This document shows positions 3,471-53,172 of a stretch of 53,466 nucleotides of DNA, one piece after another. This DNA is from Thermoanaerobaculia bacterium (GTDB taxonomy: Bacteria; Acidobacteriota; Thermoanaerobaculia; UBA5066): assembly GCA_022071945.1 (NCBI GenBank), contig JAJVIN010000055.1, positions 1 to 53,466 of the forward strand. Reading direction: 5' to 3'. The notes beneath the pieces were generated by a model that searched no databases, was not told the DNA's origin, and worked only from the letters and a program-made list of their open reading frames with translations. The number at the start of each line of letters is the position of its first letter. The first letter of the stretch is position 1. The position numbers were made by a program, and so were the translations under genes.

Positions 3471-3704
3471 TCAACTCGCTTGCGGCCCGTGGGCGGTTTC
3501 CTTCACGCCCGTGGCCGCAACCGCCTGAACGCGGACACACTGGCTCTCGGTGACGATCCGCTGGTAGGAGTGGTTGTTCCGCGGGTTCACGAGCTTCTGT
3601 GAATCCCCCAGGAGAGGGGCCGCTGTCGCGATGAGAAGCGGGGCGGCAAGGAACCGCTGGCGCAAGACGCGTGGGGACGAGACTGCCTCCTTGTGGAACA
3701 GCAT
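3471..3704 (-). CDS. Possible truncated secreted protein
   Basis: A 77-codon frame with a hydrophobic stretch (FLAAPLLIATAAPLLG) and then KLVNPRNNHSYQRI, which resembles the opening of C-type-lectin or sulfatase-modifying-factor-like domains. The remaining 30 residues do not continue such a fold. AAGGAGG lies inside the frame but no ATG follows at the right distance; a TTG near 3663 is possible. It may be the 5' end of a gene that lost its body. Weak call. Confidence 0.25.
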   Translation of the reverse strand: MLFHKEAVSSPRVLRQRFLAAPLLIATAAPLLGDSQKLVNPRNNHSYQRIVTESQCVRVQAVAATGVKETAHGPQAS

Positions 3705-3774
3705 CCAGACTTGGTTGGCGGGTGAAGTGAAAAGTTCTACACGGCCGGAGCCGAGCCGGAGTGGCCAGATTGCA

Positions 3775-3833
3775 CTCTCAGATCTGAGGAATCGCGCATT
3801 CCAGTTTTCTCACATTAGAGAGGCGCATATCCG
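3775..3833. promoter_or_regulatory. Paired palindromic enhancer site (UAS-a)
   Basis: Two imperfect palindromes of the CTCTC-N-GAGAG type: 3775-3790 (CTCTCAGATCTGAGGA) and 3816-3833 (TTTCTCACATTAGAGAGG). Their centres are 42 bp apart, four helical turns. They lie about 98 bp upstream of the -24 element at 3931. The same architecture recurs at 33703, 36988, 47095 and 50143. Confidence 0.55.
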
Positions 3834-3928
3834 GAGGGCGGCTTCTGTTCGCATCCGCTGCCCTGTTGACCCGTGATTCCGAGTGGGGCGGCCGCGCCCC
3901 TGATGAGTCACGCCCCGGCATGTCTGGA

Positions 3929-3946
3929 CTGGCAAGCCGATTGCTA
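3929..3946 (+). promoter_or_regulatory. Sigma-54 promoter facing the vWA gene
   Basis: CTGGCAAGCCGATTGCTA matches the sigma-54 -24/-12 consensus closely: GG at 3931-3932, ten bases, GC at 3943-3944, with TGGCA and TTGCT intact. Transcription should start near 3956 and run toward 4149. Confidence 0.65.
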
Positions 3947-4072
3947 GACCACACGTGGAACCGTTCTCACATTCACAGCAAAGCGGGGCCCCGCGGTCTG
4001 GTGTTCACGCGACTCTGCCGCGCCCCTTTTCAAGGATCTTCAGTCACTTGGCGCCGTTGACCTTTCCCTCCC

Positions 4073-4113
4073 AGACCCTCCCCCCAGCCAGAGCCAGGGA
4101 GGGTCTCTTTTTT
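4073..4113 (+). terminator. Intrinsic terminator inside the vWA leader
   Basis: A perfect 10-bp stem (4073-4082 with 4097-4106, 14-base loop) is followed by six T at 4108-4113. No gene on the plus strand ends upstream of it. It sits about 155 bases after the predicted sigma-54 start and 35 bases before the vWA ATG. It therefore either attenuates vWA expression or ends a small RNA. Confidence 0.7.
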
Positions 4114-4148
4114 GAGCCCCCGGGTCTGCGGGTATCGGAGCTGAGCTG

Positions 4149-5570
4149 ATGCGTTTCAGGGTGAGACCTTTCACGGCGCTCCTCTCCCTGGGGATCCTCG
4201 GCACTGCCGGCGCCGGGTTCGGGAGCGGTGTGCCCCCCGGCGAGAGGCCACCCGGAGCCGGCAAGAGAGTGGTCTTCATCCTCGACGCGTCGGGCAGCAT
4301 GAAGGCCAAGCTGGGAGCGGGGACCCGGATCACAGCCGCCAAGGACGTCATGATGCAGCTCATCCGGGATCTCCCGTCCGCAGTCGAGTTCGGGGTCCTG
4401 GCCTACGGGCACAGGCGGAAGGACGACTGCGCCGACATCGAGGAGATCATCCCGCTTGGCCAGCCGTCGAAGGACGCGGCCATCCTGGCTGTCCAGAAGC
4501 TCTCCGCGGCCGGGAAAACACCCATCACGGCCTCCGTCAGGCTGGCGGCACAGAGGCTCGGGCCGGGCGGCGGCCCCGGGGCGATCATCCTCGTTTCCGA
4601 CGGAGAGGAAACCTGCGCGGACGATCCCTGTGGCGCGGTGCGGGACCTGAAAAGGGAGGGCATCGCCTTCACCCTCCACGCCGTCGGATTCGGCGTGACC
4701 CAGAAGGAAGCCAGGCAGCTCGAGTGCCTCGCGAAAGAGGGGGGAGGCACCTACACGAGCGCCGCCAACGCGAAGGAACTCCTCGACGCTCTCGAGAAGG
4801 TCCAGAGAGCCGAAGTCGCCACGGGGGAACTCTCCCTCACGGCCAGAAAACAGGGGAAGCAGTTGCAGGCGGAGGTCGTCATCGCGTCGGCGGGGGGCTC
4901 GCGCGTGGAGGGCGGGTGGACGAGCGCCCGTGATCCGCGCGTCTTTCACCTCCTGCCCGGAACGTACGACGTCACGGTGACCGACACGTCGGTTTCGCCG
5001 AAGACGGCACGGACCGCCAAGGGACTCATCGTCAAGGCAGGCGAACGTACGGAGAAAGACTTCGAGTTCTCGCTCGAGGGTCAGCTCGCCCTCTCGGCGT
5101 TCAAGAACGGCCAGCGGATCCGCGCCGAGTTCGCGGTCTTCAAGCTGCCCGAAAAGACGCGGGTCGACAGCGGGTGGCTCTCGACGAGCGGCCCTGTGAG
5201 CGTGCGGCTCCTCGCCGGGCCGTACGAGGCCGCGGCCGTGGACACCCGAGTGGCGACGAGGTCCGAGCGGCGCGCGGTCTTCGAGGTCAAGTCCGGCGAG
5301 ACCACCACGGTCGACCTCGCCGGGTTCCTCGAGGCCGAAGTCGAGCTCTCGGCGATGCGGGATGGGAAGCGCATCCGTTGCGAGTTCTCCCTGCGGCGCC
5401 GGGAAGGCGGAGGGAGGGACAGCGGCTGGCTCCCGACCGAAGGTCCTCGAAAGTGCTTCGTCCTGCCCGGTACCTACGACCTTGACGTGCGGTGCGGGGA
5501 TGAAAAGAAGAAGCAGGAAGGGATCACGCTCGTCCACGGAGACAGAAAGACGTTGGAGGTCCAGTTCTGA
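4149..5570 (+). CDS. Secreted von Willebrand factor A domain protein with three C-terminal repeats
   Basis: A 473-aa exported protein. A signal peptide (FTALLSLGILGTAGAG) precedes a vWA domain at about 38-220. Its metal-binding MIDAS motif is complete in its first element (DASGS, residues 46-50), followed by a later Thr and by VSDGEETC. vWA domains bind protein partners through a divalent metal. Residues about 224-473 form three related units of about 80 residues, each opening like GELSLTARKQGKQLQAE / GQLALSAFKNGQRIRAE / AEVELSAMRDGKRIRCE and closing with LLPGTYDV-like strands. GGAG lies 8 bases before the ATG. Sigma-54 signals and a terminator lie upstream, so expression is probably conditional. 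The partner is unknown. Confidence 0.85.
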   Translation: MRFRVRPFTALLSLGILGTAGAGFGSGVPPGERPPGAGKRVVFILDASGSMKAKLGAGTRITAAKDVMMQLIRDLPSAVEFGVLAYGHRRKDDCADIEEIIPLGQPSKDAAILAVQKLSAAGKTPITASVRLAAQRLGPGGGPGAIILVSDGEETCADDPCGAVRDLKREGIAFTLHAVGFGVTQKEARQLECLAKEGGGTYTSAANAKELLDALEKVQRAEVATGELSLTARKQGKQLQAEVVIASAGGSRVEGGWTSARDPRVFHLLPGTYDVTVTDTSVSPKTARTAKGLIVKAGERTEKDFEFSLEGQLALSAFKNGQRIRAEFAVFKLPEKTRVDSGWLSTSGPVSVRLLAGPYEAAAVDTRVATRSERRAVFEVKSGETTTVDLAGFLEAEVELSAMRDGKRIRCEFSLRRREGGGRDSGWLPTEGPRKCFVLPGTYDLDVRCGDEKKKQEGITLVHGDRKTLEVQF

Positions 5571-5665
5571 GGGTCCATGGGGCGCCCATCCCTGAAAGCC
5601 TTCGTCTTCTCCTGGCCACACTGCTCGTTCTCTCCGCCCGTGGCGCCGGGGATGCGAACCGGATC

Positions 5666-6145
5666 GTGAGTAAGAAACCCTCCCAGCAGAAGCGGGGCTG
5701 GCAGCCCGGTACAGTGCTCCTCGAGGGCTACCACCCCTCCGCCGCGGCGCTCGACAGCGAGCACGTCCATGCGGTCGTGGCCCCCTTCACGAAGAGCGCC
5801 GCCGAGGGTGTCAGCGGAATCGCCGCCATCGACCGGAAGACCGCGACGGCGCGCTATCTTCTCCGCGGTACTGCCGAGCTTCTCCCCAACCACATGGCAG
5901 GGGTGCACCTCGGACGCGGCGCCCTCTCCCGGCTGAACGGCTTGACCGTGATGAAAGCCGCGGTCTCGACAGGTGAGACGCGCGCGATCTCTCCGTTCGG
6001 ATCCCTGGCAGGGGCCTTCTGGGGAATGACGCCCCACACCTTCAACCACAACGACGAGAGGAAGCGCCTGGCCATCGACACTGTCAGCGGCACGGCCGCC
6101 GGGGAGGGTGGCGAGTGGCTCCAGATTCTCGAACCGCGCGCGTAA
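5666..6145 (+). CDS. Hypothetical protein, probably exported
   Basis: Not recognised. From the GTG at 5666 the product is 159 aa with no clear domain. The in-frame codons just upstream read LRLLLATLLVLSARGAG, a good signal-peptide core, and stay open back to a CTG at 5567 that overlaps the vWA stop codon. The true start is therefore probably non-ATG and translationally coupled to the vWA gene, giving an exported protein of about 190 aa. Glycine and histidine are scattered and there are no cysteines. It could be an internally shortened beta-propeller. It precedes the cytochrome gene by about 50 bases. Confidence 0.5.
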   Translation: MSKKPSQQKRGWQPGTVLLEGYHPSAAALDSEHVHAVVAPFTKSAAEGVSGIAAIDRKTATARYLLRGTAELLPNHMAGVHLGRGALSRLNGLTVMKAAVSTGETRAISPFGSLAGAFWGMTPHTFNHNDERKRLAIDTVSGTAAGEGGEWLQILEPRA

Positions 6146-6196
6146 TCGGGCGGGATGGCCCGAAAACCGGCAGAGCCGCCTTACCGGAGGTTCCTG

Positions 6197-7162
6197 ATGA
6201 GCAGAGGATGGAAATGGGTATCGGGTCTTGCGCTGATGGCCATCATTGGCGTGGCCGGTATCGCAGTCCGCTTCTACGTCCTGGCGCCGCGCCACCGGCC
6301 TGCGCAACAGGTCGAGGCGCCAAGAACGCCCGAGGCCATCGCGCGTGGCCGCTACCTTGCCCATCACGTCGCGGCCTGCATGAGTTGCCACAGCCAGGTG
6401 CAAGAGGAACTGCCGGGCGACCCAGTGGCCATCGGCCGTTTCGGAAGCGGCCGCGACTTTGGCGCGGACGCCGGGTTTCCGGGACACGTTCGCGCCAGCA
6501 ACCTCACTGCGGCCCCGCAGGGCTTGGGGAACTGGAGCGACGGAGATATCCTGCGCGCCGTTCGCGAGGGGATCTCGCGCGATGGCCGTCCGTTGTTCCC
6601 GTTGATGCCGTATCAGGCCTACGCGCGGCAGCTGTCCGACGCCGACGCTCTGGCAATCGTGGCCTATCTGCGCACGCTCCCGCCGCTGACGGACACCGTG
6701 GCTCCGAGCGCCATCGGCTTTCCCGCCTCGATGTTCATTCGCCTCTCGCCGGCCCCCGTGGAGAGCGGGGCCAGTCCGCTGCCCGCCGAACCCCTCGCGC
6801 GAGGACGGCGCCTTCTCGACCTGATGAGCTGCGGCGACTGCCACAATTCCTTCGACGGGAGGCGTCAACCAATCCCGGGCCGCGAGATGTCCGGAGGGGC
6901 TGAGTTCAATGTGCCAGGGAAGGGGAAGGTCCACGCGAGTAATCTGACTCCGGACAAAGAGACCGGGCTCGGCACGGCCACGGAGGAGGACCTCGCGCGC
7001 GCCCTGCGATCCGGCACCGGCCGCGACGGCCGGATTCTCCACGCCATGCCCTGGACGGCCTACGCCGGGCTCTGCGATGAGGATCTGCGCGCCGTGATCA
7101 CCGCGCTGCGCGCCCTGCCAGCGGTGCGTAACTATGTACCAAAGAGAAGCTTCGAGCGCTGA
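6197..7162 (+). CDS. Membrane-anchored diheme cytochrome c
   Basis: A 321-aa protein with one N-terminal membrane anchor (VSGLALMAIIGVAGIAVRFYV) and two class I cytochrome c domains. The heme-binding motifs are CMSCH and CGDCH, about 155 residues apart. Each is followed by a plausible methionine ligand segment (FPLMPYQAY; HAMPWTAY). Both domains carry the sequence ASNLT followed by P or A, as in alcohol- and sugar-dehydrogenase cytochrome subunits and related electron carriers. The ATG at 6197 was preferred to 6155 because GGAGG lies six bases before it. It would act in the periplasm passing electrons to a terminal oxidase or another acceptor. No dehydrogenase gene is adjacent, so its donor is unknown. 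Confidence 0.88.
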   Translation: MSRGWKWVSGLALMAIIGVAGIAVRFYVLAPRHRPAQQVEAPRTPEAIARGRYLAHHVAACMSCHSQVQEELPGDPVAIGRFGSGRDFGADAGFPGHVRASNLTAAPQGLGNWSDGDILRAVREGISRDGRPLFPLMPYQAYARQLSDADALAIVAYLRTLPPLTDTVAPSAIGFPASMFIRLSPAPVESGASPLPAEPLARGRRLLDLMSCGDCHNSFDGRRQPIPGREMSGGAEFNVPGKGKVHASNLTPDKETGLGTATEEDLARALRSGTGRDGRILHAMPWTAYAGLCDEDLRAVITALRALPAVRNYVPKRSFER

Positions 7163-7165
7163 GGG

Positions 7166-7729
7166 ATGGACACGAGGCGCGCCCGCCCCTCATGGGTTGA
7201 GATCAATGGCGGTCGAGACCCCTCTCGCGAGAAACCCGGAGGCCCACGGCGGGGGAACGGAGACCTCTTGGCCGGCCTGACGGGACAGATGCTGGGCCGC
7301 TACCGGCTCGAATCCCTCCTCGGACGAGGCGGGATGGCCGCGGTCTACAGGGCTTTCGACGAGGAGCTGCGCCGCGCGGTCGCGATCAAGGTCATCCTCG
7401 GCGAGGCCCCCGCGGACGGGTCCTTCCGTCAGTTCCAGGACATCCCGGAGATTGGTGGAACGATCCCGGACTGGGCTCTTGCTCTGTCCTATCTCGACCC
7501 GAGGAGGGAAGCTCGAGACCTTCTCGCGCGGGCGGAACGGAGGGGAGATCCGGGCGTCGAGCAAGGCCGGAGGATTCTGGCGAGACTCGAGGGCGACGAG
7601 CCAGGGGTCCCTGCCCTCGATTCCAAATCAGACGGCGGAGTTGCACATGTGCCTTCCGTACCCCGAGGCGAGAGCCTCCGGGAACTTCGCGACCGGCTGC
7701 GAGGGATGAAGCCCATGCCCCCTCGATAG
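7166..7729 (+). pseudogene. Internally deleted Ser/Thr protein kinase
   Basis: Residues from about 42 read [20 protein letters not shown] and then AVAIKVI: the glycine loop and the VAIK lysine of a bacterial Ser/Thr kinase. About 13 residues later the catalytic core stops. There is no HRD, DFG or APE motif. The frame continues into a tail ([26 protein letters not shown]) like the TPR-type repeats often found C-terminal to such kinases. The simplest reading is a large in-frame deletion joining kinase subdomain II to the tail. It begins four bases after the cytochrome stop; an alternative TTG start at 7268 has GGAG upstream. It cannot phosphorylate. A protein could still be made. Confidence 0.75.
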
Positions 7730-7906
7730 CTTCCCGTGACCAGCCTGCTTCACATCCAGTCCGGGCAACGAGGACTCTTCGCCGTCCTGCTCACCACTAC
7801 CATGGGATTTCCTGTCTTACACCGACTGGCAGGGAGGGCAACTCGGGCCCTTTCTGTGGTGAAATACCCCCCGAAATCCTTCGTCCATTCTCAAGGGAGG
7901 TGGGTC

Positions 7907-8317
7907 ATGGTGTCCCTCATCACGTGGAGCGATGAGTTGAGCGTCGGCGTTGCTGCATTCGACAACCAGCACAGACGCCTGGTTGCCCTGATCAATGAAC
8001 TGCACGAGGCCATGTCCGAGGGCAAGGGCAGCAAGGTCCTGGGCAAAATCCTGTCGGAACTGGCGGACTACACGGTGTATCACTTCAAGGCGGAAGAGGC
8101 CGTCTTCGAGAAGCATGAATACCCTGGCCTCGGCAGCCACAGGGATAGCCACGGCGAACTGACACGGCAGGTTCTGGACTTCAAGGATCAATTCGAGGCA
8201 GGCGAGGCCGTTCTCAGCATGGAACTCATGAAGTTCCTGACGGACTGGCTGACGAATCACATTCTGGACACGGACAAGGCCTACACGGCGTTCCTGAACA
8301 GCAGGGGCGTATCCTGA
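7907..8317 (+). CDS. Bacteriohemerythrin
   Basis: A 136-aa single-domain hemerythrin that binds O2 at a di-iron site. The family ligands are visible in order: ITWSDELSVGV then the His of NQHRRLV, YHFKAEE with EEAVFEKH, then HRDSHGEL, and finally NHILDTD near the C terminus. The ATG at 7907 has GGGAGG seven bases upstream; the earlier in-frame ATG at 7736 would add about 57 non-homologous residues. Fusions and neighbours of hemerythrins often sense oxygen or redox. Here the next gene, eleven bases on, is a hybrid histidine kinase, so the hemerythrin may feed it a signal. Confidence 0.93.
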   Translation: MVSLITWSDELSVGVAAFDNQHRRLVALINELHEAMSEGKGSKVLGKILSELADYTVYHFKAEEAVFEKHEYPGLGSHRDSHGELTRQVLDFKDQFEAGEAVLSMELMKFLTDWLTNHILDTDKAYTAFLNSRGVS

Positions 8318-8328
8318 GGGAATCGCTG

Positions 8329-10787
<2,459 letters not shown>

Positions 10788-10791
<4 letters not shown>

Positions 10792-12017
10792 CTACGGCGC
10801 AGCACACAAAGAAACCGTCGCTCCTCATCGTTGACGACACTCCCGAGAACATCGACGTCCTCGATGGCCTCCTCCGGGAGGAGTACCAGATCAAGGTGGC
10901 TCTCAACGGAGACAAGGCGCTCAGGATCGCCTTCTCCGATTCGCCTCCCGACTTGATCCTCTTGGACGTCATGATGCCGGGGATGGACGGATACGAGGTC
11001 TGCCGGCGTCTCAAGGATAATGCGAGAACGAAGGGCGTTCCCGTCATCTTCCTGACCGCAAGAACCGAGATAGAGGACGAGACCCGCGGGTTTTCTCTTG
11101 GAGCGGCGGACTACATTGCCAAGCCCATCAGCCCCCCGATTGTAAGAGCCCGGATCAAGACCCACCTGGCGCTCCACTCCCACAACAAGCTCCTGGATGC
11201 AACCAATACCGTGCTCGCCCAGGCCAAGAAGGCCGCGGATGAGGCCAGCCAGGCCAAGGGCCGCTTTCTCGCCAACATGAGCCACGAGTTCAGGACCCCC
11301 CTGAATGCCATCATCGGCTACAGCGAAATGCTCCTGGAAGCCGCCGAGGACAGAGCGGACGACTCCCTCATCCCGGACCTGAAGAAGATCCGGATCGCCG
11401 GCAGGCATCTGCTGGGGCTGATCAACGACGTCCTGGATTTCTCGAAGATCGAAGCAGGGAAGATAGAACTCGTCAACGAGATGTTCTCTGTTTGCGACCT
11501 GTGTCAGGAAGCGATGGCCATAGCGGCTCCCCTGGCGGAGATGAACCAGAACCGGCTCGAGCTTCGGTGCTGCGGGTCGATCGGGTCCATCTACGCGGAC
11601 GAGATGAGATTGAGGCAGAGCCTGTTCAACCTGATCAGCAATGCCTGCAAGTTCACAACCCAGGGAGACATCGTGCTGCTGTTCGACCGCCAGAACGCAG
11701 GAGGAAACGGGAACGGGTTTTTCTCCGTAGCCATAACCGACACCGGCGCCGGAATGACGCCCGAACAGATTTCGCGGTTGTTCGAGGAATTCGTCCAGGC
11801 CAATTCCACGACGTCGCAGAAGTTCGGCGGGACCGGGCTGGGACTCGCGCTCTCACGCAAGCTGTGCCGGATGATGGGGGGCGACATCACCGTGACGAGC
11901 GAGTACGGGAAGGGGTCCACCTTCACCATCCGTCTTCCCGTCACGTTCGCGCCCGGCCCGCCCGGGCCACCCCCCCCATGCGGCGCCACGTTCGTCCCTC
12001 ACGCGAAACCCGAGTGA
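10788..12017 (+). CDS. Receiver-histidine kinase hybrid
   Basis: A 409-aa protein that starts at an ATG overlapping the previous stop (ATGA), so the two genes are translationally coupled. The N-terminal receiver (about 10-125) has [13 protein letters not shown] and [11 protein letters not shown] with D60 as phosphoacceptor, and a conserved lysine in IAKPI. A short coiled coil leads to HisKA with H166 in [19 protein letters not shown] HATPase domain follows with DTGAGM and FGGTGLGL. Receiver-first kinases of this type take a phosphoryl signal and pass it on. With the upstream hybrid kinase and the hemerythrin it forms one operon. The output regulator is not in the operon. Confidence 0.92.
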
Positions 12018-12031
12018 TCATCGGAAGCCTC

Positions 12032-12062
12032 GCACGTGGGCTCGCTCCGCTCGCCCACATGC
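12032..12062. terminator. Hairpin between convergent genes
   Basis: Arms 12032-12041 and 12053-12062 pair over ten bases with one C-A mismatch, around an 11-base loop. It follows the kinase stop by 15 bases and precedes the end of the nifJ remnant on the other strand. There is no T-tract, so it may be a bidirectional barrier or a dispersed palindromic repeat. Confidence 0.4.
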
Positions 12063-12117
12063 CAAGCCTTCTTGATTCCACGCCTCCCGTCCGTGATCTC
12101 TCTCGAGGGTGATGAGG

Positions 12118-12520
12118 TCAGATCCTCCTTGCCGCCATCCCGGACAGATGCACGAGACGCGCGTGAGCCTCCGCGATAAGGTCCTCGGAGACCTCCGGAT
12201 GCGCCTTCTCCGCCATTCGGTAGCGCGTCTCCTGGCTCACGTAGTCCTTCAGCGAGATCCTCGGGGCCATCGAGTCGAGTTGCAGGGGCGAGAGACCCTG
12301 CTCTCTCCGGCGGGGGTCGTACCGGTAGAGGGGACAGTGGCCCGGATCCACGGCTAGCTGCTGCCGGAGCCCACGACACGTTTCCATGCGGCCCCTCCCT
12401 GGGACACCACTCACCCATGTTCGACGAGGGGGTGATCGGGTAGATGGCGATGACCTCGTTTGCGCGGTAGGCCACCGGCGCGGCGTCGTCGTTTCCATCC
12501 AGCGTGACTGTCGCACTCAC
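12118..12520 (-). pseudogene. nifJ: Collapsed pyruvate:ferredoxin (flavodoxin) oxidoreductase
   Basis: The intact enzyme, about 1200 aa, converts pyruvate and CoA to acetyl-CoA and reduced ferredoxin. Here a GTG at 12520 opens a frame with the family N terminus (VTLDGNDDAAPVAYRANEVI, then YPITPSSNMGEW). After about 40 residues homology ends. In another frame the very C terminus appears (VDPGHCPLYRYDPRR, then PLQLDS and NRY-like ETRYRMAEKAHPE), ending at 12118. Roughly 1000 codons and all the iron-sulfur and thiamine-binding parts are missing, with a frameshift at the joint (near 12400). It lies 12 bases downstream of the lyase gene and could have been its operon partner. The gene symbol refers to the ancestor. 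Confidence 0.8.
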
Positions 12521-12531
12521 AAGAGCAACTC

Positions 12532-13755
12532 TCAGACGCGTTCCAGAGCTTGTTCGAGGTCGGCCCAGAGATCCACGGGGTCCTCCAGGCCCACGGAAAC
12601 GCGGAGGAGGCTCTCTGAGATTCCGTTCTCCCGGCGCGCGCCCTCCTCGACGACCCGGTGCGTCAGCGCCGCCGGGTGCTGGATGAGTGTGTCGACGGAC
12701 CCGAGCGATACGGCGGGCGTCATCAACTCCACGGAGGCCATGACCCGCGCCGCGGCCGCGAACCCTCCAGAGACATTGAAAGCCAGGATCGTGCCCTTCC
12801 CCTTCATCTGCTTCTTCATGATCGCGGCCTCGAGCGAGGACCCCAAGCCCGGGTAGTGGACGGCCGTGACTCTGGGATGACGAAGGAGCCGTCCGGCCAG
12901 TTCCTCGGCGCCCTGCTGCGCATGGCGGACCCTGAGAGGCAGGGTCGGCAGGCCGCGGTGGAGCAGATAGGCCGCGAGGGGGTGAAGCACGTTGCCCGTG
13001 ATGACGCGGATCTTGCGCAGCTCGCGCGCCCACTCCACATCCGTGGCGACAACTCCAGCCAGAACATCGCCGTGCCCGCCGATGAACTTCGTCGCGCTGT
13101 GCAGGACCACCGCGGCGCCGTGCCGCGCGGGATTCTGGAGAACCGGAGTCGCGAAGGTGCTGTCCACCATCACGGGGACCGTGCCGGCCTGTTCGACGGC
13201 CTCATCCAGGTCGACCAGCGACAGCGTCGGGTTGGCCGGGGTTTCCAGGATCACCAGGGCCGTCTCGGACCGCAGCGCCCGCCGAATCCCGTCCGGGCGG
13301 GCCCAGCTGACGTCGATACCGAGGAGGCCGGAGGCGAGCAGATGATCCGTGCCGCCATACAAGGGCCGAATGGCAACCACATGGCACGGCTTTCCGTTCC
13401 CGGTCCGCTGCCGGGCGGCCATGAGAACGGACGTGACGGCGGCCATGCCGCTCCCGAAGGCAACGGCTTCCTCGGTTCCCTCTAGACCCGCGAAGGCCTT
13501 CTCGAAGCGCGCGACGGTCGGGTTGTGGAGACGCGAGTAGATGGGTGTCGTGGCGGGGTGTCCGCCAGAAGCGAGGGTCTCGAGGTCGATGCCCGCGGCG
13601 GCCAGGTCCGGCACCCGGTAGGTGGAGGAGAGGTCGATGGGAAGGGCATGGACCCCCATGTCATGAAGGTCCTCCCTGCCGCCGTGGACGGCGCGGGTCT
13701 CCAGCGACAGTTTCATGGGCTCCACGGTCTTGGGCATCGCGGTCTCGAAGAACAT
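12532..13755 (-). CDS. PLP-dependent methionine gamma-lyase / cystathionine gamma-lyase family enzyme
   Basis: A 407-aa cytoplasmic enzyme of the trans-sulfuration PLP family. Visible are YSRLHNPTV, the phosphate-binding FGSGMAAV, the ETPANPT motif, the Asp of VMVDSTFATP and the Schiff-base lysine in LHSATKFIGGHGD (K223). The substrate-entry segment and the spacing fit methionine gamma-lyase or cystathionine gamma-synthase/lyase; sequence alone does not decide. GGAGGAG lies 8 bases before the ATG at 13755. The divergent Lrp/AsnC gene and the palindrome between them suggest regulation by an amino acid. The downstream nifJ remnant is notable because methionine gamma-lyase yields a 2-oxoacid that such oxidoreductases can use. 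Confidence 0.9.
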   Translation of the reverse strand: MFFETAMPKTVEPMKLSLETRAVHGGREDLHDMGVHALPIDLSSTYRVPDLAAAGIDLETLASGGHPATTPIYSRLHNPTVARFEKAFAGLEGTEEAVAFGSGMAAVTSVLMAARQRTGNGKPCHVVAIRPLYGGTDHLLASGLLGIDVSWARPDGIRRALRSETALVILETPANPTLSLVDLDEAVEQAGTVPVMVDSTFATPVLQNPARHGAAVVLHSATKFIGGHGDVLAGVVATDVEWARELRKIRVITGNVLHPLAAYLLHRGLPTLPLRVRHAQQGAEELAGRLLRHPRVTAVHYPGLGSSLEAAIMKKQMKGKGTILAFNVSGGFAAAARVMASVELMTPAVSLGSVDTLIQHPAALTHRVVEEGARRENGISESLLRVSVGLEDPVDLWADLEQALERV

Positions 13756-13794
13756 GGCGTTTTCTCCTCCGCCGCGATGCTAGGATCAGGAACG

Positions 13795-13811
13795 ATTCGA
13801 TTCCATCGAAT
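13795..13811. promoter_or_regulatory. 17-bp dyad, probable Lrp/AsnC operator
   Basis: ATTCGAT-TCC-ATCGAAT is a perfect 7-bp inverted repeat with a 3-bp centre, in the 74-bp gap between the divergent lyase and Lrp/AsnC genes. Size and symmetry fit operators of this family. It could serve both promoters. Confidence 0.6.
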
Positions 13812-13829
13812 TGATTTCGGATTCTTCCC

Positions 13830-14315
13830 ATGAGTGACGCGCTCGACCGAACAGACTTCGAGATATTGGCTCTTCTGCAGAAGAATGCTCGTCTGTCCAA
13901 CAAGGAACTCGCGGCCGCCGTCGGGCTGGCGCCCTCCACGTGTCTCGTGCGCGTTCAGGCCCTGAGGGAGAAGGGAATACTGGGGGAAGCCCACACTGAC
14001 GTCGCGCCGGAGGCTCTCGGGGTGGGCCTTCAGGCCCTCGTGGCCATCCGCTTGAAGCAGCACGGGCGCGCGCAGCTGAAGGCCTTCTGGAAGCACCTTC
14101 GCTCTCTTCCCGAGGTCCGGACGGTCTTTCACGTCTCGGGGGACCACGATTTCCTCCTCCATCTGACGGTGCGTGACTCCGCCCACCTGAGGGATTTCGC
14201 GCTCGACGCCCTGACCTCACGTCCAGAGGTGGCGCACCTCGAAACCTCGCTGGTTTTCGACGTGGCGAAGAACCCCGTCGTGCCGAACTTCCGCAAGGAG
14301 GAACCGTTGAAGTAG
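13830..14315 (+). CDS. Lrp/AsnC family transcriptional regulator
   Basis: A 161-aa regulator. The N-terminal winged helix-turn-helix (LDRTDFEILALLQKNARLSN, then KELAAAVGLAPSTCLVRVQALREKGIL) is typical, and the C-terminal RAM domain (about 65-150) carries HVSGDHDFLLHLTVRD, the ligand-binding GD-type motif. Such proteins form octamers and respond to amino acids. It is divergent from the PLP lyase with a 17-bp dyad between them, so it probably controls that lyase and itself. Methionine or a related amino acid is a reasonable ligand guess, by context only. Confidence 0.93.
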   Translation: MSDALDRTDFEILALLQKNARLSNKELAAAVGLAPSTCLVRVQALREKGILGEAHTDVAPEALGVGLQALVAIRLKQHGRAQLKAFWKHLRSLPEVRTVFHVSGDHDFLLHLTVRDSAHLRDFALDALTSRPEVAHLETSLVFDVAKNPVVPNFRKEEPLK

Positions 14316-15035
14316 GGCCGTCTCCTTCACGGCCACATGAGGGCTCCTCCTGTCGCGGCCAGTCATGATGGCGTGGCCCGCACCCTGAGCCACGGGGTTC
14401 AGGCCGCGGCGCAGCAGCCTTACCGCGACGTCACCGGTGGCGTCTCTCGAACCGTCCACGCTCACCGCGGCCGCGTAATCCAGCTCCACCCTCCAGGCGT
14501 CCGTTCCCGACGGGAGGTGCGGATGAATCGTTCGACCCTTGGATACGGCTTCGATCCGCCGCGGGCCCGGGGTCTTGACGCGGCCACGCCGCTGACCGCC
14601 AACGGCAACAGGGGTCTTCAGCTCCTGTCTCCCGCCGTATTGGGCGCGGTCGATCTCGAACTCGAACGCCTCCGGGCGCTCGGAATCCAGGCCGTCGTGC
14701 TCGCCTCCCGGATGAGGCCGGGGTCCACAACGGTTACGTCCGGATCACCAGGCTATCGGGCGGAGCCCGCTTCGTGGCCTACGGTGTCGTCAATGCCGGC
14801 GAATTCCCCGAGAGCGGAGCCACGAACGATGGGAGCTATGTGGCGATGTCGGAGTACTGACCATGGGCTGACACAAGCCCGGGTGCGCGTGCTGCCTCCC
14901 CTTGTTCCCGTCGCGAGGCTTCCACACGATTACCATCGGCCCCGGCCGCCCCGCTGGTTCGGGGCTCCAGACGAGGTCGCGAAACCCCTCGCGCGTCCCG
15001 GCGCCAATCAGGCGTGAAGGGCTTCAGGCAGCCCG
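14316..15035. other. Gene-poor stretch with coding remnants
   Basis: 720 bases without an intact gene. On the minus strand, about 14700 down to 14400, a frame with convincing codon bias (AFEFEIDRAQYGGRQEL ... IHPHLPSGTDAWRVELDYAA) has no clear start or end and is not recognised; it looks like a gene fragment. On the plus strand 14723-14860 is a C-terminal module remnant, listed separately. Nothing else is evident. Confidence 0.4.
14723..14860 (+). pseudogene. Orphan C-terminal end of the shared secreted-protein module
   Basis: Forty-five codons ending in TGA at 14858 encode GYVRITRLSGGARFVAYGVV, then a spacer and TNDGSYVAM. This is the last strand set of the module that ends the proteins at 15036, 22996, 26511 and 42692. 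No start or upstream domain is joined to it, so a giant secreted gene once ended here on the plus strand. Confidence 0.7.
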
Positions 15036-18000
15036 CTACGGCGCCTCGTCGACGAGGGACATCGGGACGTAGGCCCCGTCCCCGGTCCGCTCTCCCGGAA
15101 GACTCCCGTCGTTCACGACTCCGTAAACGATGAACGGGCTGAGGCCCTCCGTTCGCGTCACCTTCACATAGCCGGTCTTCGTTCCCGGCGCATGCCGCGC
15201 CAGGATGGTGGTGAACTGCTTGAACCCGCGAGCGGGGACGCCTTCGCCTTCGAGGGTCGCGGCCAGCTGCCCGGTGCCGCCGTCGTAAATGTCCAGCCGA
15301 AAGACATCCGCTTCCGACCCCTCCGCGCCCGCGTGAACGATCGCGAGGTTGCTCCGGCTCTCGTCGTCTTGCCTGAGCCCGAAGATCCAGGCGGAGGAAT
15401 CTGCCGCCTGGCCGTCCGGCACGGCAGGATAGAAGAGCCCGTAGCGCCCGCCGCCCCCCTCGGAGGATGTTCGCGCCCCCAGGAAGACTCCCGACGTGTC
15501 TCCCCCGTCCACGGAGGCGAAAAGCGCTCCCGCGAAGCTGCCCGAGCCCACTCCGGCGACGCCTCTCTCCCGGAGGAAGGCGACGAAGCCCGGGATCAAT
15601 CGCTGCTCACCGGGAGCCAGCAAGACCGACGTTGCCGCCGTATTCCCGGGCGCCGTCACCGCGTCCGCGAGGTAGGCGAGACGGAGCATCCTCGGCGACG
15701 AGCCGAAATTCGTCGCGACGAGTTCGCTCGAGAACGCGGATGTCTCCACGATCACGGGCAAGACCGTGACCGCCGGCTTTGCCTTCGAATCCACCAAGAA
15801 CGGCGGGATGAACGAGCCGTCCGAGTTCCGCTGGTCGTTGACGACGGCGTAGGTGTAGTAGGGGGCATTTCCGGCCACTCGCTCGACGCGCGCGTAACCT
15901 TGGACAACATCGGGTCCCGCCTTGGTCAAGACGCCCGTGATCTGCTTGAACCCGCCAGGCGCGATCCAGTACTCCGGCAGAGTGACCGAGCGCGGAGCGG
16001 TGGGATCCCCGGAAAAGACCGTCACGCGCAAGGCGATGTCGCCCGAGCCCTCTTCTCCCGCGTGTATGAGGGCGAGATTCGAGCGGTCGGCGCCGTCCTG
16101 GCGAAGCCCGCACAGAAGGACGGGACCCGTCAAGCCTGCCTGTCCGGGGACATCCGTGTAAGCCAGCCCGGCTCGTCCTTCCGGCACGACGGACGTCGTG
16201 CGGGCCAGGGCAGCCAGTGGAGACCGTCCCTCCTCGCCCGGAACGGTGATCCGCAGCGTTCCACCACGGTCGCCACTCGCCGGGATGTCGATGCCCGTGG
16301 ACGCCAGGTACCGAAGGGCATCCCGGTGCGTGATCTGTCCGCCGGGCGGCACGACATCGAAACCCGCGCCGCCGCCCCCTCCGAACGCGGGGGTGTACTC
16401 GAGTTGCGCCAGCAGCGATCCCTGCGTCGTGTTCGTCAGCGTCAGCTCGGACGTGAAGAAGGATTGGTTGGCGCCCGCGGAGGTGAGGAGGATCGGAACG
16501 AGACTGCTCGCGCGCGCATCGCCAGCCTCTTGCGTGATGCCGGCCTTCAACCCCGCGACGGTCACGGTGCCAGTCCGGGAGTCCGTCCGCGGGTTCTCCG
16601 TGGCCTGAAAAGCGACGGATCCCGAACCTGTCCCTGAAGGCGGCGACACCGTCAGCCAACTGGCATCGGAACTGGCCGTCCAGGCGCAACCAGCCGGGGC
16701 CGTGACCTCGATCGTGCCCGAGGAAGCACCAGGTCCAAGACGGGGGTGTCCGTGCGACAGACCGATCCGGCACGGCGAAGGGATCTCGGGTGTCAAGACC
16801 GCCCGGATCATCATGTTGACCGGAGTCTGCTGTCCGCCCTCGCTCTGGAAGACGAGGGGACCCTGGAACACCGACCCTCCATCCGTGGAAAAGAACCCGC
16901 GCCGCTGCTGCTCGCCGCTGCTGTCGGCCGCGAAGACGACACCGCCCGAGGGCGTGGGCGAGGCGTAGCCCGCGTAGATGTCGCCGGAGGTGACGAGCGG
17001 ACCATTGGTGACGGCGAACTCGACGAACCCGCCGCCCGAGGGAACGGCGGGGAGCGTCACGAGCTGGTCCACGGCCAGGGAAGTCACGGTACGGGGCGAA
17101 ACGGGCACCCCCTCCCGATCCACGAACGCCACGAGGCGCACGACGGCGCCGGCCGGGCTCGGTTGTCCCTGAAAGAGCGCGTGGAAGATCCGGATCGCGG
17201 TGAGCCTGACCGGGTACGCGGCCGGAGTGAACCGGTTCGCCACGACGAGGCCTGGCTGGACGGCCCCCGTCTCCACGGTGCCGTCGTCCGTGGCGAGAGT
17301 CACGGCCGCGCCCGGGGGTGCCACGCCCGTGCCTTTCAAGTCGAGGCGGAATGTGGATTGTCCGGGAACGTTCGTCAGAAGCGACAACGAGCCGGCCACC
17401 CCTCCCTCGGTGGCCGGCTGGAATCGGACCGTGAACCCTGCCTCCTGGCCGGCCTGGAGAACCACGGGGAGCGAGGGAGAAGCGAGGGAGAACGGTCCGG
17501 CCGGAACCGCCGACAAGACCTCTAGAGATCCCGTTCCGTCGTTTCGGATCGAAAGGACCGTGGTCGAGGACGTTCCTGCCGCCACGCTCCCGAAATCGAA
17601 GGCGTCAGGCGTGGCGGCAATGTGGGGGGCCACGGCCGGTGTTCCCGTCCCGGACAGGTCGATCCCGACCGTCCGTCGCGACGGGTCGTTCGTCTGGATG
17701 TGAAGACGGCCCGTCTCGAACGATCCACGGACCGGAGAGAAGGCAAGGGTCAGAACGCGGCTCCCACCGGGCTCGATGACCAGGGGGAGGGTGGGAGCCT
17801 GGAGGCTGAATCGGCCGTTGGTTGCGGCCGCGGCACCCGCGATGAGAGGGGCGTCTCCCGCGTTCACGAGCGTGACGGTCCCCAGTCCCTGCTCTGTGGC
17901 CGCAACGGAACCAAACGAGAGGGAGTTCGCGCTCAGACGGGCTGAAGGGGCGGTGATCGTGAAGGGAAGGCTCTGGCCGCCCATGCCGCGCACTCTCACA

Positions 18001-20966
18001 CTCACATGGGCCGGGCCAGGCGGGGCGCCGGCGGGCACCCGGACGACGAGCCTATCGGCCGAGGCCGAAACGATGTCCGACACGGCCTCGCCGAACAGAA
18101 CCTGGTTCTCGGCCGGTTTCTCCGAGAAGTTCCGGCCCGAGAGCGTCACCGTCTCGCCGGCCTGCCCCGTGACGGGATCCAGGGATGTGAGCACGGGCAG
18201 GGAGGGGACGACGAACGTGTGCGACGTCAGCTCTCCCTCCGTTCCCGCCTTGGACCAGTAGGTTGTCCCCTCGACGACGAGGGGCGGTCCCGGGCTGTCT
18301 GGAACCTGGAAGATGGCGCGGACGGGATAGGACGGGGGAGGGAACTGGAAATAGACCGAGCCCCCGGAAATCTCGATGACCTCCGAGGAGTTCCAGCCCT
18401 CGAAACCCGGGCCGAACTCGAAGCGCGCCTCGAGGCTGGCCGAGGGAACGGGTTCCCCCGCCTCGTCGACGAAGGCCAGCGCCGCCATCGCGCCCTTCAA
18501 TTGGGGCAGGTTCTCGCGGCCGGGCCGCGCCGTGATGGCCCGGGTGACCTCCTGGTTCGACATGTCCTGAATAGTTCCTTGCCACGTGGCGCCATTGGCG
18601 GCCCTGCCCACCTGTTCCCCTGGCGAGTAGGACCAGTCGGCCGGGTTGTTGTCATGGAAGAACCCGTGCAGCACGAAGAGCTGATCGAGGGGCGAGAGTT
18701 CGAGACCCGAGGGAACGGCCAGGGAAGGAAACGCTTGCGCGAGGGCGCCATGCAGCTGGAGCAGGCTGCCAGGCTTTCGGCTCGAGAAGACCGAGATGAC
18801 ATCCTTCAGGGAGAGGTCGATCGTGTCCGAGACCCCGGACGCCCCCGAGGGTGGGTCGATGGCGCCGTCGATGAGGTCCCACAAGAGCCCGGCGACCGCC
18901 AGCTCTTCATCGAAACGGGCGGAGGGTCCGGAGACGGGGCCGACCGCGAGGTAGTTGTGCTCCGGGTCGAGATGGCCCCCGTTCTCGGGGCTCGGACTGT
19001 TCCAGCGGAAGACAGCACGGCGGAGCGTCTCGAACACCTGGCTCGAGGCTGTTCCCCAGAAAGTCGCGAACCCCTCGTCGAGAGATCCACACGTGTAATC
19101 GTTGGCAAAGCCGTTGTGGTTCCGGTCGAGGGCCGGGTCCGTGGAAGGAGCGGGGCGCGGGAGCTCTCCCCCGTACAGCTCCCGGAGCAGATGGTGCCCG
19201 AACTCGTGCCAGACGACACTCGGATTGGCGCCCGGCACGCTATCTTTTGGCTCGAGGGAGATGCTCGAGGGTGTCAAGCACCCGGCGGGGTCCGCTGTCG
19301 CGCAATAGAAGGAGATCCCGTTTGGACCATTCAGGTAGACCTCGAGGGGCAGATCTCTCGACAGCGGGAGGCTCGTATTCACCGGCATCATCAGGTACAC
19401 CTGCCGCCAGACGTGCCAGTAGGTTTCCGCCGCGGCGTAGGAGACGTCGCGGCGCGCCGCGTCGGCCACGAGGGGAGCCCCGTCTCCAACCTCGAGGTCC
19501 CGAATGACGTCGCTCGTGCCAGAGGGAGAGAATGGCTCCCATCTCAACTCGTGGGCGGAGCCTCCATCGCTCGATCCCGCCGAGACGAGGAATCTCGAGG
19601 AGTCATCCCGTTCGGCGTCTCGAAGAAAGACCCGTGGCTGGTACTTGCGAGACGTGTCGAGGCCGGCGGCGATCTTGAAGCAGTAACGGGCGTCCGGGGC
19701 CTCGAACGTCCCCTTCAGCTCGGCCTGGACGCGGCCGATCCTCTGGCCGGGCTCCTGCGTCACGTCCCAGACTTCGACGGAGGCGTTTGGCAGCGGGTAG
19801 GTGCCGAGCCGTCCCTCGCGGAAGAGGCGTCCGGAAAGGGTGCACGGCTCCCCGACCGGATAAGAAAGAACCTGCGTTTGCGCCAGGACCTCTCCCCCGG
19901 CATCGTCGGTGAGGACACCCTTCAGTTCCAGCCTGGTCACGCCGGGGTCGATGGTGAATTCCCGCACGGTCAGCGTAACGGCCTTGGCCGCGCCCTTTGT
20001 GACCGGATCGTCCGGCGACGACGACGCCTGCAGGACCCCGCGCTGATCGTAGAGGCGCAGTCCGGCGCGTCCGGCGGGACGCGAGAGTACTTGAGCAAGA
20101 CCCGCCGCCGAAAACGAGGCGCGTGCCCCCGGTTGAAGGCGTGTTCCGGGGGCCGGGCTCACCGAGCGGGAATCGATCGAGATGGAGTCGACCGTGCTGA
20201 AGTTGTGATAGGTGCCGTAGATGCTCTGGCCGCCGGCCTCTTTCCCGTCGATCTCGAGCTTGATGGAAAGGACGGCGTCCGAGTAGTGGTTCTGGATTCC
20301 GTTGGCGAAGTTCCGGTTGTATGTGGAAAGCCCCGCCACGGGACAAGAAACAACAACGCGGAACGAGGCGGTACCGCCGGACATGAACCCCCGGGAGGGG
20401 CTCCGGACGGCACAGTCGAACGCGGGCACCGAGCTGTTGTCCCGCATCCTGACCGCGAGCACCGCCGTGTGAGGCGTTTCCGGAGCCTCCACGGGATGTT
20501 TGTGCGTGTAGGACACCGTCGCGTCGAACTGCTGAGGAAAGTCCAGCAACAGAACGCCGGAGCTATTCTCCCGGCCCGTGAAGCTCGCGGGAAGTGACAA
20601 GGAGGCGCTTCCCCAGATCTCGTCGTTGCCGCCGAGCAGGGGGACGGAAGCCGAGCTGCTCGTCGTGAGAACCGGCTCGCCCGGGAACCGGCGGTACGCC
20701 TCGAAGGCCGACCGGTACGAGGCTTGCGCCAGGAGGGGGGGGCCGTCCGGGCAGCAGACGATGGCGGCGAGGACCATCTTCAGCGAGGCGAGAAGAACCG
20801 CCCGGGCGAGGGCGCCGCTCCGGCCCCCCTCGCGCAAGAACGACTCAACCCGCGGACGAGTTCGCGCGTGCCCGGGTGCGGGCCCCATCACGGAGCGGGA
20901 CTCCATCTTTTCTCCAAGGTACCCAATCCGCTTCGACGGTTGACCTTCTCGCCCGGCTTCCGCCAT
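15036..20966 (-). CDS. Giant secreted multidomain protein with a metalloprotease-like HEFGHH motif
   Basis: 1976 aa. A signal peptide follows a long N-terminal extension (hydrophobic core about residues 52-75). AAGGAGG precedes the ATG at 20966, but GGAG also precedes an ATG at 20906. At about residue 585 WHEFGHHLL is a zinc-binding HExxH motif with the gluzincin-like GHH; a downstream Glu or Asp ligand was not identified. Further domains are an IPT/TIG fold (about 920-1000), two or more ASH/HYDIN-like units with LSFGSVAATEQG and FDFGSVAAGTSS (about 1005-1225), and a BACON-type unit (about 1420-1475: WTASSDASWLTVSPPSGTGS). The last 480 residues are two copies of the C-terminal module shared with neighbours. 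It starts 30 bases after the OmpA-like gene and is probably cotranscribed. Likely cell-surface or extracellular. Confidence 0.85.
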   Translation of the reverse strand: MAEAGREGQPSKRIGYLGEKMESRSVMGPAPGHARTRPRVESFLREGGRSGALARAVLLASLKMVLAAIVCCPDGPPLLAQASYRSAFEAYRRFPGEPVLTTSSSASVPLLGGNDEIWGSASLSLPASFTGRENSSGVLLLDFPQQFDATVSYTHKHPVEAPETPHTAVLAVRMRDNSSVPAFDCAVRSPSRGFMSGGTASFRVVVSCPVAGLSTYNRNFANGIQNHYSDAVLSIKLEIDGKEAGGQSIYGTYHNFSTVDSISIDSRSVSPAPGTRLQPGARASFSAAGLAQVLSRPAGRAGLRLYDQRGVLQASSSPDDPVTKGAAKAVTLTVREFTIDPGVTRLELKGVLTDDAGGEVLAQTQVLSYPVGEPCTLSGRLFREGRLGTYPLPNASVEVWDVTQEPGQRIGRVQAELKGTFEAPDARYCFKIAAGLDTSRKYQPRVFLRDAERDDSSRFLVSAGSSDGGSAHELRWEPFSPSGTSDVIRDLEVGDGAPLVADAARRDVSYAAAETYWHVWRQVYLMMPVNTSLPLSRDLPLEVYLNGPNGISFYCATADPAGCLTPSSISLEPKDSVPGANPSVVWHEFGHHLLRELYGGELPRPAPSTDPALDRNHNGFANDYTCGSLDEGFATFWGTASSQVFETLRRAVFRWNSPSPENGGHLDPEHNYLAVGPVSGPSARFDEELAVAGLLWDLIDGAIDPPSGASGVSDTIDLSLKDVISVFSSRKPGSLLQLHGALAQAFPSLAVPSGLELSPLDQLFVLHGFFHDNNPADWSYSPGEQVGRAANGATWQGTIQDMSNQEVTRAITARPGRENLPQLKGAMAALAFVDEAGEPVPSASLEARFEFGPGFEGWNSSEVIEISGGSVYFQFPPPSYPVRAIFQVPDSPGPPLVVEGTTYWSKAGTEGELTSHTFVVPSLPVLTSLDPVTGQAGETVTLSGRNFSEKPAENQVLFGEAVSDIVSASADRLVVRVPAGAPPGPAHVSVRVRGMGGQSLPFTITAPSARLSANSLSFGSVAATEQGLGTVTLVNAGDAPLIAGAAAATNGRFSLQAPTLPLVIEPGGSRVLTLAFSPVRGSFETGRLHIQTNDPSRRTVGIDLSGTGTPAVAPHIAATPDAFDFGSVAAGTSSTTVLSIRNDGTGSLEVLSAVPAGPFSLASPSLPVVLQAGQEAGFTVRFQPATEGGVAGSLSLLTNVPGQSTFRLDLKGTGVAPPGAAVTLATDDGTVETGAVQPGLVVANRFTPAAYPVRLTAIRIFHALFQGQPSPAGAVVRLVAFVDREGVPVSPRTVTSLAVDQLVTLPAVPSGGGFVEFAVTNGPLVTSGDIYAGYASPTPSGGVVFAADSSGEQQRRGFFSTDGGSVFQGPLVFQSEGGQQTPVNMMIRAVLTPEIPSPCRIGLSHGHPRLGPGASSGTIEVTAPAGCAWTASSDASWLTVSPPSGTGSGSVAFQATENPRTDSRTGTVTVAGLKAGITQEAGDARASSLVPILLTSAGANQSFFTSELTLTNTTQGSLLAQLEYTPAFGGGGGAGFDVVPPGGQITHRDALRYLASTGIDIPASGDRGGTLRITVPGEEGRSPLAALARTTSVVPEGRAGLAYTDVPGQAGLTGPVLLCGLRQDGADRSNLALIHAGEEGSGDIALRVTVFSGDPTAPRSVTLPEYWIAPGGFKQITGVLTKAGPDVVQGYARVERVAGNAPYYTYAVVNDQRNSDGSFIPPFLVDSKAKPAVTVLPVIVETSAFSSELVATNFGSSPRMLRLAYLADAVTAPGNTAATSVLLAPGEQRLIPGFVAFLRERGVAGVGSGSFAGALFASVDGGDTSGVFLGARTSSEGGGGRYGLFYPAVPDGQAADSSAWIFGLRQDDESRSNLAIVHAGAEGSEADVFRLDIYDGGTGQLAATLEGEGVPARGFKQFTTILARHAPGTKTGYVKVTRTEGLSPFIVYGVVNDGSLPGERTGDGAYVPMSLVDEAP

Positions 20967-20996
20967 CTCGGGTCCCTCCTTCGAGGTCTTCGCGGG

Positions 20997-21869
20997 TCAT
21001 TGAGCCTTCTTCTTGACGAGCACGACCCGCCGATTGGCGGCGCGGCCTTCCTCTGTCGAGTTGCCGGCGACCGGTTTCTCCTGGCCATGCCCGGCGGAGG
21101 AAAGTCTCTCCGCCCTGACTCCTCTTTCGACGAGGGCCGTCACGACGGCCCGGGCCCGGTCCTGGGACAGAACCCGGTTTCCCTCGAGCGTTCCGGTATT
21201 GTCGGTATGGCCTTCGACGCTTACCGCGAGGGCGGGGTCCTTCTTCAAGGCCACGACTATCTGATCGAGGATCGGGGCGGACTCGGGCTTGATCACGGCC
21301 TTGCCCGTGTCGAACAGGATGTGGAGGGCGATCGACCCTTCCTTCGCGAGCTTGTCGAGGATCGCGTCCGCCGTGATGACCTGCTCCATGGCCTTCTTCT
21401 CGACGATGGTGACGAAGTAAACCGGCCCGCTCGTGCTCGTGGAAGCCTTGATCTCTGCCCAGGCCTCGCCGGAACTCGTAGTGAGGCGGAGAGTCCGGAG
21501 ATCGTTGGAGGAGAACACGGTTCTTCCCCCCGCGTTCTGGATTGCGATCTCGTAGTTCCGCAGAATCGCCAGGCCCCCGGGGTGTGGCGTCTCCTTCGAG
21601 CGCCGGTAGTGGATGAGCGTCTTGCGGCCTTCCACGGGGGACCGCGTCGACTTGCCCACCCAGAACGTGTACGACGCGAACTCCTCGGCCTTGTAGTGCG
21701 AGATCGCGTATCCCGGCATCCGGACCGGGAAGAGCGGGTGGTCGGAGCTGCCCTTGACGTCCTTGGCGGAAGTCGCGAGAGCCCGGCCGGCGAAAGGCGC
21801 CCCACACAGAATAGAGGCGGCGAGCAGGATCGAGTGCGCAAGAAGCCTCTTCTCGAGCGGCAGTCTCAT
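20997..21869 (-). CDS. OmpA-family outer-membrane protein
   Basis: A 290-aa protein with a signal peptide (LLAHSILLAASILCGAPFAGRALA). An N-terminal domain of about 130 residues of unknown fold is followed by a C-terminal OmpA peptidoglycan-binding domain. That domain shows ILFDTGKAVIKPES, VEGHTDNTG, and NRVLSQDRARAVV with the closing GRAANRRV. These residues contact diaminopimelate in peptidoglycan. The ATG at 21869 was chosen because it gives a standard signal peptide, with GAGAAAGG about ten bases upstream. The longer open frame to 22874 is not supported. It likely anchors an outer-membrane or surface assembly to the cell wall, and the giant secreted protein follows directly. Confidence 0.9.
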   Translation of the reverse strand: MRLPLEKRLLAHSILLAASILCGAPFAGRALATSAKDVKGSSDHPLFPVRMPGYAISHYKAEEFASYTFWVGKSTRSPVEGRKTLIHYRRSKETPHPGGLAILRNYEIAIQNAGGRTVFSSNDLRTLRLTTSSGEAWAEIKASTSTSGPVYFVTIVEKKAMEQVITADAILDKLAKEGSIALHILFDTGKAVIKPESAPILDQIVVALKKDPALAVSVEGHTDNTGTLEGNRVLSQDRARAVVTALVERGVRAERLSSAGHGQEKPVAGNSTEEGRAANRRVVLVKKKAQ

Positions 21870-30918: not shown

Positions 30919-31118
30919 CCAGGGATTCGGGCTGGCATCGCCCTCCACGCCTGTTTCAGGAAAGACTTCGGAAAACCTTGGCACGGGTTCTGCCCTCCTT
31001 TTCCGCACGGACCGCCGGTTGGACCTGGATTGCCCAGACAACCGAAGGCCGGGAGCCCCAAGGGAACGAGTATGCGCGCGGTGGAGCACCCGGCCCAATG
31101 GGATGTGCCGGTCCCGCT

Positions 31119-32054: not shown

Positions 32055-32065
32055 GTGGTCCCTCG

Positions 32066-32530
32066 TCACAGGGGCGCGATGTCCTCTTCGAAAACGAGAA
32101 CCTTGTATCCCTCCCTGGATTTGGCGTACCAACCCGGGGGACGGTGGCCGAGAAGCACGAGGCTCTTCTTCATGACCACCCAGAGGTATGTCTCCTCGAC
32201 GGTTCCGGAAGCCGCCGGGAAGATGTGGGCGGAGGAGGCCCACTTCTGGACGGCGGGCTCGGGCCAGTCGCCGGGTCCGCCATGACAGACGCCGAGGACC
32301 CTGACGATGTGCTCGCCGATCCCGCTCTTTTCCATTCGCAAGACCAGGAGTGTCCCGCGCGCCTGGACGAGATCACGCTTGATCATCGGCTTCAGCCGAG
32401 CCAGTTCCCTGCGAACAGCTGCGGTGATCGAGAGGTTCTGAATCAGGCCCGCCAGCGACTCGAGGCCGTCAAGGCCCGTCTGGATGTGGCCGTTTCTCGC
32501 CTCTGGTGTCCCGTATCGTGACCCCGCCAT
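32066..32530 (-). CDS. Hypothetical protein, second gene of the sigma-54 operon
   Basis: 154 aa, not recognised. AGGAGG lies six bases before the ATG at 32530, a strong ribosome site. There is no signal peptide or membrane segment. The N-terminal half is helical and basic (RRELARLKPMIKRDLVQARG); the C-terminal half has beta character with HIFPAASGTVEETYLWVVMK and a final GYKVLVFEED. Two cysteine-free halves and high charge suggest a cytoplasmic chaperone- or adaptor-like protein, but nothing proves this. Spacing to its neighbours is 89 and 11 bases. Confidence 0.6.
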   Translation of the reverse strand: MAGSRYGTPEARNGHIQTGLDGLESLAGLIQNLSITAAVRRELARLKPMIKRDLVQARGTLLVLRMEKSGIGEHIVRVLGVCHGGPGDWPEPAVQKWASSAHIFPAASGTVEETYLWVVMKKSLVLLGHRPPGWYAKSREGYKVLVFEEDIAPL

Positions 32531-53159: not shown

Positions 53160-53172
53160 TTCCATCGCTGGC

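Follow-up and report, generated by a model that had tools for sequence, protein, structure and literature searches.

A predicted sigma-54-dependent leader with a conserved intrinsic terminator ahead of a vWA-domain gene in a Thermoanaerobaculia bacterium

The gene for a vWA-domain protein (4149-5570, + strand; 473 aa, with a signal-peptide-like N-terminus) in the window, by which we mean the whole 53,466-nt stretch of DNA analysed here (contig C41), is preceded by a sigma-54-like promoter and an intrinsic terminator, and we give about an even chance to the reading that these two elements delimit a conditionally transcribed, attenuated leader. Several features of the DNA support an attenuated leader, namely, paired upstream activator sites (UAS), the sigma-54 site, the terminator, the conservation of these elements between two copies of the locus, and their recurrence at another gene of a putative regulon. 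We favor it over a riboswitch or a classical pairing small RNA (sRNA) because the promoter and the terminator are conserved while the transcript body between them is not. The alternative posed by an earlier sequence-only reading, that of a sigma-54-dependent small RNA or an attenuated leader, is thereby supported as an either/or.

The sigma-54-like -24/-12 element, read from the sequence as TGGCAAG-CCGA-TTGCT, lies at 3930-3945 (+ strand), with the -24 GG at 3931-3932 and the -12 GC at 3943-3944, both unchanged in the two vWA copies and separated by 10 bases. The start predicted from it is at about 3956, giving a predicted vWA leader of 3956-4148 (+ strand). Within this leader, the hairpin at 4073-4113 (+ strand) combines a perfect 10-bp stem (AGACCCTCCC at 4073-4082 and GGGAGGGTCT at 4097-4106) and a 14-nt loop with a following C and six T residues (4108-4113), so that a GC-rich stem directly abuts the U-run, as in an intrinsic terminator. 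The ATG of vWA (4149) follows 35 nt past the T-run, and GGAG at 4137-4140 (+ strand) is its probable ribosome-binding site. The succession of a near-consensus promoter, a perfect stem with six T residues and a start codon 35 nt beyond, as originally described, is borne out at these positions, and so is the statement that no gene intervenes: the open frames 3955-4149 and 3866-4060 were rejected, being devoid of the third-position bias of coding sequence and, owing to a 1-nt deletion, out of frame in the second copy. We also rejected a separate promoter in 4114-4148, where a TTGAGC/TATCGG look-alike is absent from that copy.

The hairpin is far above chance expectation. Its fold energy is -19.5 kcal/mol (z of about -4 with short flanks), and perfect stems of at least 8 bp with loops of up to 16 nt and at least five T residues are found 9 times in 1.25 Mb of the genome, two of these being the vWA hairpin and its paralogue, versus none in block-shuffled sequence. 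Terminator-type hairpins are rare in this genome (66% GC), and a generic terminator scan has a loop limit of 8 and overlooks one with a 14-nt loop. The promoter motif, on which the earlier case had been built, is indeed present but is weak evidence on its own: TGGCAMGN4TTGCW has its single match in 6.17 Mb at 3930-3945, against two matches of the reversed-pattern control, which is the chance level genome-wide. Matches to a relaxed sigma-54 pattern are overrepresented in sense orientation upstream of genes, although two pairs of homologous sites contribute most of them, and the genome encodes RpoN as well as about 30 sigma-54 activators. It is the regulon context that makes the site convincing, since the upstream activator site is shared with other promoters.

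A paralogous vWA locus at 244.8-246.8 kb of C3, in the same assembly, is 88-89% identical including the intergenic region, and the two copies differ at 22% of the fourfold sites of vWA (56/249). Between them, the core promoter block (3859-3944, + strand) has 3 changes in 86 nt and the transcript body (3945-4048) 17 in 104, while the block 4049-4112 (+ strand), consisting of a 24-nt C/U-rich lead-in and the terminator, has 0 in 64. For the terminator versus the body, the promoter block versus the body, and the body versus fourfold sites, p values are 0.0003, 0.004, and 0.25, respectively, as calculated from two copies only and with block borders chosen after seeing the data; an identical run of 64 nt anywhere in the intergenic region has p = 0.006. 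Selection appears to hold the core promoter and the terminator and not the transcript body, which diverges like fourfold sites. The UAS region (3776-3821) has 12 changes in 46 nt, and its palindromes persist in both copies nonetheless; in the C3 copy, G replaces A/T after the -12 GC. Since the gene upstream of the C3 copy is divergent, the terminator there can act only on transcripts started in that intergenic region.

Duplication extends well beyond vWA. Window segments 3554-12372, 12405-21045, and 31106-34842 correspond to parts of C3 and C32 as segmental duplications in rearranged form (87-95% identity), the window copies being partly decayed (truncated lectin/BACON gene, propeller gene, and Ser/Thr kinase). 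That C41 is a mere strain variant of C3/C32 is less likely, because the gene order is rearranged and the end of C41 appears to be continued in C32 through one cytochrome c gene. At the other end of the window, 49-126 matches an Rfam group II intron at 41 bits (threshold, 40) and overlaps the beginning of a gene called as DUF559 (32-517).

The activator sites assign vWA to a local sigma-54 regulon. The UAS unit is a 14-bp palindrome, TCTCA-N4-YGAGA, in tandem, and its motif was built from the promoters of vWA and at 33.7 kb together with the C3 copy of each. Upstream of vWA the pair at 3776-3821 comprises TCTCAGATCTGAGG (3776-3789) and TCTCACATTAGAGA (3808-3821), 32 bp apart from start to start and 122 bp upstream of the sigma-54 site. 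Allowing up to 3 mismatches, the genome has 20 strand matches to the tandem UAS (11 forward and 9 reverse), almost confined to C41, C3 (206-245 kb), and C32, whereas the reversed pattern has none and relatives have 0-2 matches per strand. About one-fifth of the genome was read directly and the remainder by pattern search, on a draft assembly with crude script-made gene calls. In the 1.4 Mb of genome covered, all full-strength pairs with 31- to 32-bp spacing on C3, C32, and C41 are followed in one of the two directions by a sigma-54-like site that scores at least 18.5 and lies 57-149 nt away (C41, 3776, 33704, 36989, 50144, and 53165; C3, 223324, 234013, and 245029; C32, 26403 and 31142). Pairs with no such site are the marginal C3:206824/C3:206869 and a few with 30-bp spacing inside genes. 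The reversed-sequence control gave 2 UAS pairs, neither with a sigma-54 site. With a background chance of 1.2% per region for a site scoring at least 19.5, finding one in 6 of 6 independent cases with either direction allowed (C41 36989, 50144, and 53165, C3:223324, C32:26403, and C32:31142) corresponds, by arithmetic from that rate, to about 2e-10.

Within the window, another regulon promoter has its tandem UAS at 33704-33749 (- strand) and a sigma-54-like site, TGGCAGCTGATTTGCT, at 33623-33638 (- strand), which is kept at C3:234125; the UAS pair at 36989-37034 (- strand) is followed by CGGCAACGGACTTGCT about 104 nt past the second repeat. Between divergent propeller genes lies a weaker pair (47096-47141), whose sigma-54-like site, TGGCAAGGAACGTGCG, is also weaker, further off, and directed towards the NHL gene 42692-46573; the leader at C3:223324 looks similar. 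On the - strand, the pair at 50144-50188 and its site TGGCAGGCAACGTGCT (50000-50015) have no convincing gene behind them and possibly drive a non-coding transcript. The pair at 53165-53210 with CGGCACGCCGATTGCG at 53254-53269 (+ strand) stands before a cytochrome c gene that the contig end truncates. The gene downstream of the C3 vWA copy (L006:11027-11497) encodes a 156-aa protein with no Pfam match, and a homologue lies directly behind another UAS/sigma-54 promoter of C32 (L139).

Adjacent to the promoter at 53165-53269 are a PAS histidine kinase (50344-51699, + strand) and, as its probable partner, an NtrC-type sigma-54 activator (51501-53078, + strand) with a receiver, PF00158, and HTH_8, which is our candidate regulator and whose true start is probably downstream of 51501. 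The PAS region of the kinase has a cysteine cluster, CREAVGACSTLCSDCPA, which the G009 kinase shares and which possibly serves redox or metal sensing. The UAS pair and sigma-54 site sit directly 3' of the activator gene and ahead of the cytochrome c gene (53280-53466), of which C32 (from base 1 of L218) apparently holds the rest in frame, followed by narG-like sequence; the window gene would then run into narG via C32, across a weak, low-complexity join of 9 overlapping bases. In G009, of the same family, the genes and sites run in the order kinase, activator, UAS directly following the end of the activator gene, sigma-54 site (TGGTACGCCCCTTGCC), cytochrome c, and a narG above the TIGR01580 cut-off, and G005 keeps the UAS, the sigma-54 site, cytochrome c, and a narG-like gene, with the activator not adjacent. 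From these arrangements in the window and the two relatives, the UAS probably serves as operator for the 50344-53078 two-component system, and the regulon likely has its physiological role in nitrate respiration.

The terminator, like the UAS, recurs. In near-identical form it is found past the sigma-54 site at three regulon promoters, i.e., both vWA copies and C32:26403, where it reads GACCCTCTCCCC, 16 nt, GGGGAGAGGGTC, and TCTTTTT and the distance between the start of the -24 element and the T-run is 158 nt. The gene behind this C32 leader (C32:26130) is unrelated to vWA, and we read its translation as a repeat protein of the BNR/sortilin-like kind that bears a lipoprotein-like signal. The C3 vWA and C32 terminators are homologous and share an 18-nt 3' stretch, GAGGGTCTCTTTTTCCAG, the other leader sequence being unrelated. 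GACCCTC...GAGGGTC occurs at four places genome-wide, three of which are these leaders, and a pattern-level scan for the hairpin across 20 relatives gave scattered matches. The loops of 14 and 16 nt are longer than is usual for terminators. Each of the three leaders is immediately followed by a regulon gene in the sense orientation.

These observations can be joined in a working mechanism. A phosphorylated NtrC-type activator, most likely the product of 51501-53078, would bind the paired palindromes at 3776-3821 in response to an inducing signal that may be nitrate or redox state, as this UAS is also found ahead of cytochrome c-narG in relatives, and would cause sigma-54 RNA polymerase to start at about 3956. 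The majority of transcripts would be expected to end at 4113, and vWA, with no conserved promoter in the remaining 35 nt, would be expressed by read-through, which may act as a second gate or hold expression at a low set level. Regulation of this read-through is something we infer, the analysis having turned up no antiterminator, aptamer, or RNA-binding motif. A structured riboswitch is unsupported, since the leader folds no better than shuffled sequence (z of 0.06 for the whole leader, +0.7 and +0.4 for the 5' part) and the two vWA copies fold differently. Distant homologues of vWA (G022, G058, Rokubacteria, and a deltaproteobacterial MAG) have leaders in which the sites were not found; DNA matches in G005:C29 were discarded, having only a C-rich stretch in common.

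The same elements might instead produce a terminator-ended sigma-54-dependent sRNA of about 155 nt acting in trans, with vWA expressed by leakage, which we consider unlikely. The promoter-terminator unit is complete, the 24 nt ahead of the terminator, in which the active part of such an RNA might lie, are identical in both vWA copies, and the C/U-rich stretch UUUCCCUCCC could perhaps pair with Shine-Dalgarno sequences; an unpaired UCCCUCCCA stretch is also present in the C32 leader, in the terminator loop. However, a classical trans-acting sRNA would be expected to conserve its body, of which only those 24 nt are kept between the two copies: the remainder diverges at about the fourfold-site rate, the body is unrelated between the vWA and C32 leaders, Rfam 15 has no match to the leader above the gathering score, and the regulon gene follows in sense in 3/3 cases.

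If termination were simply partial and unregulated, lowering the level or the leak of a sigma-54 gene with no antitermination, the failure to find a regulatory fold or motif within the leader and the confinement of conservation to promoter and terminator would be accounted for; the conserved stretch, however, adds 24 nt before the stem, beyond what a terminator needs, and we judge this explanation improbable. We hold it very improbable that the sigma-54 site is a chance look-alike and/or the hairpin does not terminate, with vWA transcribed from another promoter. The chance-level motif and the long loop would fit such an account, yet it is opposed by the co-occurrence of UAS and sigma-54 site, the conservation of promoter and terminator between copies, the presence of the terminator in a further sigma-54 leader, and the absence from C3 of the TTGAGC/TATCGG look-alike past the terminator. 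A broader proposal, which we put forward as doubtful, is that a nitrate- or redox-responsive two-component system governs a regional sigma-54 regulon of secreted proteins, some of whose leaders carry a common terminator cassette that is either read through via an antiterminator or yields a family of sigma-54 sRNAs sharing only the terminator and a C/U-rich anti-Shine-Dalgarno stretch.

Among known systems, the candidate regulator resembles the NtrC, ZraR, and AtoC type in its receiver, sigma-54 interaction domain, and Fis-type HTH, and its presumed operator resembles theirs in having palindromes that come in pairs, spaced by about three helical turns, and lie 57-149 bp upstream; in contrast, its best NCBIfam matches (AtoC, NtrC, and ZraR) are all far under the cut-offs. 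To our knowledge, TCTCA-N4-YGAGA is not the operator of any known system. The operator sequence, the candidate activator, and the list of regulon genes are now open to direct testing, and the case illustrates that a shared activator site can rescue a single chance-level sigma-54 match. Qrr, GlmY/GlmZ, and CrcZ are sigma-54-dependent small RNAs which, like the predicted vWA leader transcript, combine an activator-driven sigma-54 promoter with a short transcript and an intrinsic terminator; unlike it, they keep their body sequence across copies or relatives, where the vWA leader keeps only its ends and is followed by a gene in sense.

The nasF operon, where NasR acts by ANTAR antitermination, is one of the closest known counterparts of the predicted arrangement, and its promoter is NtrC/sigma-54 dependent. 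In Klebsiella oxytoca, the nasF leader contains a terminator with nitrate-controlled read-through (PMC7496416, PMC3369931), amounting in vitro to 5% without and 52% with nitrate (PMC7496416). As predicted for vWA, a promoter is followed there by a leader whose intrinsic terminator keeps most transcripts from reaching the first gene, and a link to nitrate is possible for vWA too, as the UAS precedes narG. The genes differ, and the paired AnnGnn hexaloop hairpins of the ANTAR type, the second overlapping the terminator, are absent from all three leaders; with this hallmark missing, we do not class the vWA leader as of the nasF type. A limited literature search returned no sigma-54 leader terminators of this sort outside the nasF case, and the present findings suggest that activator-dependent promoters joined to leader terminators form a unit re-used beyond its enterobacterial example.
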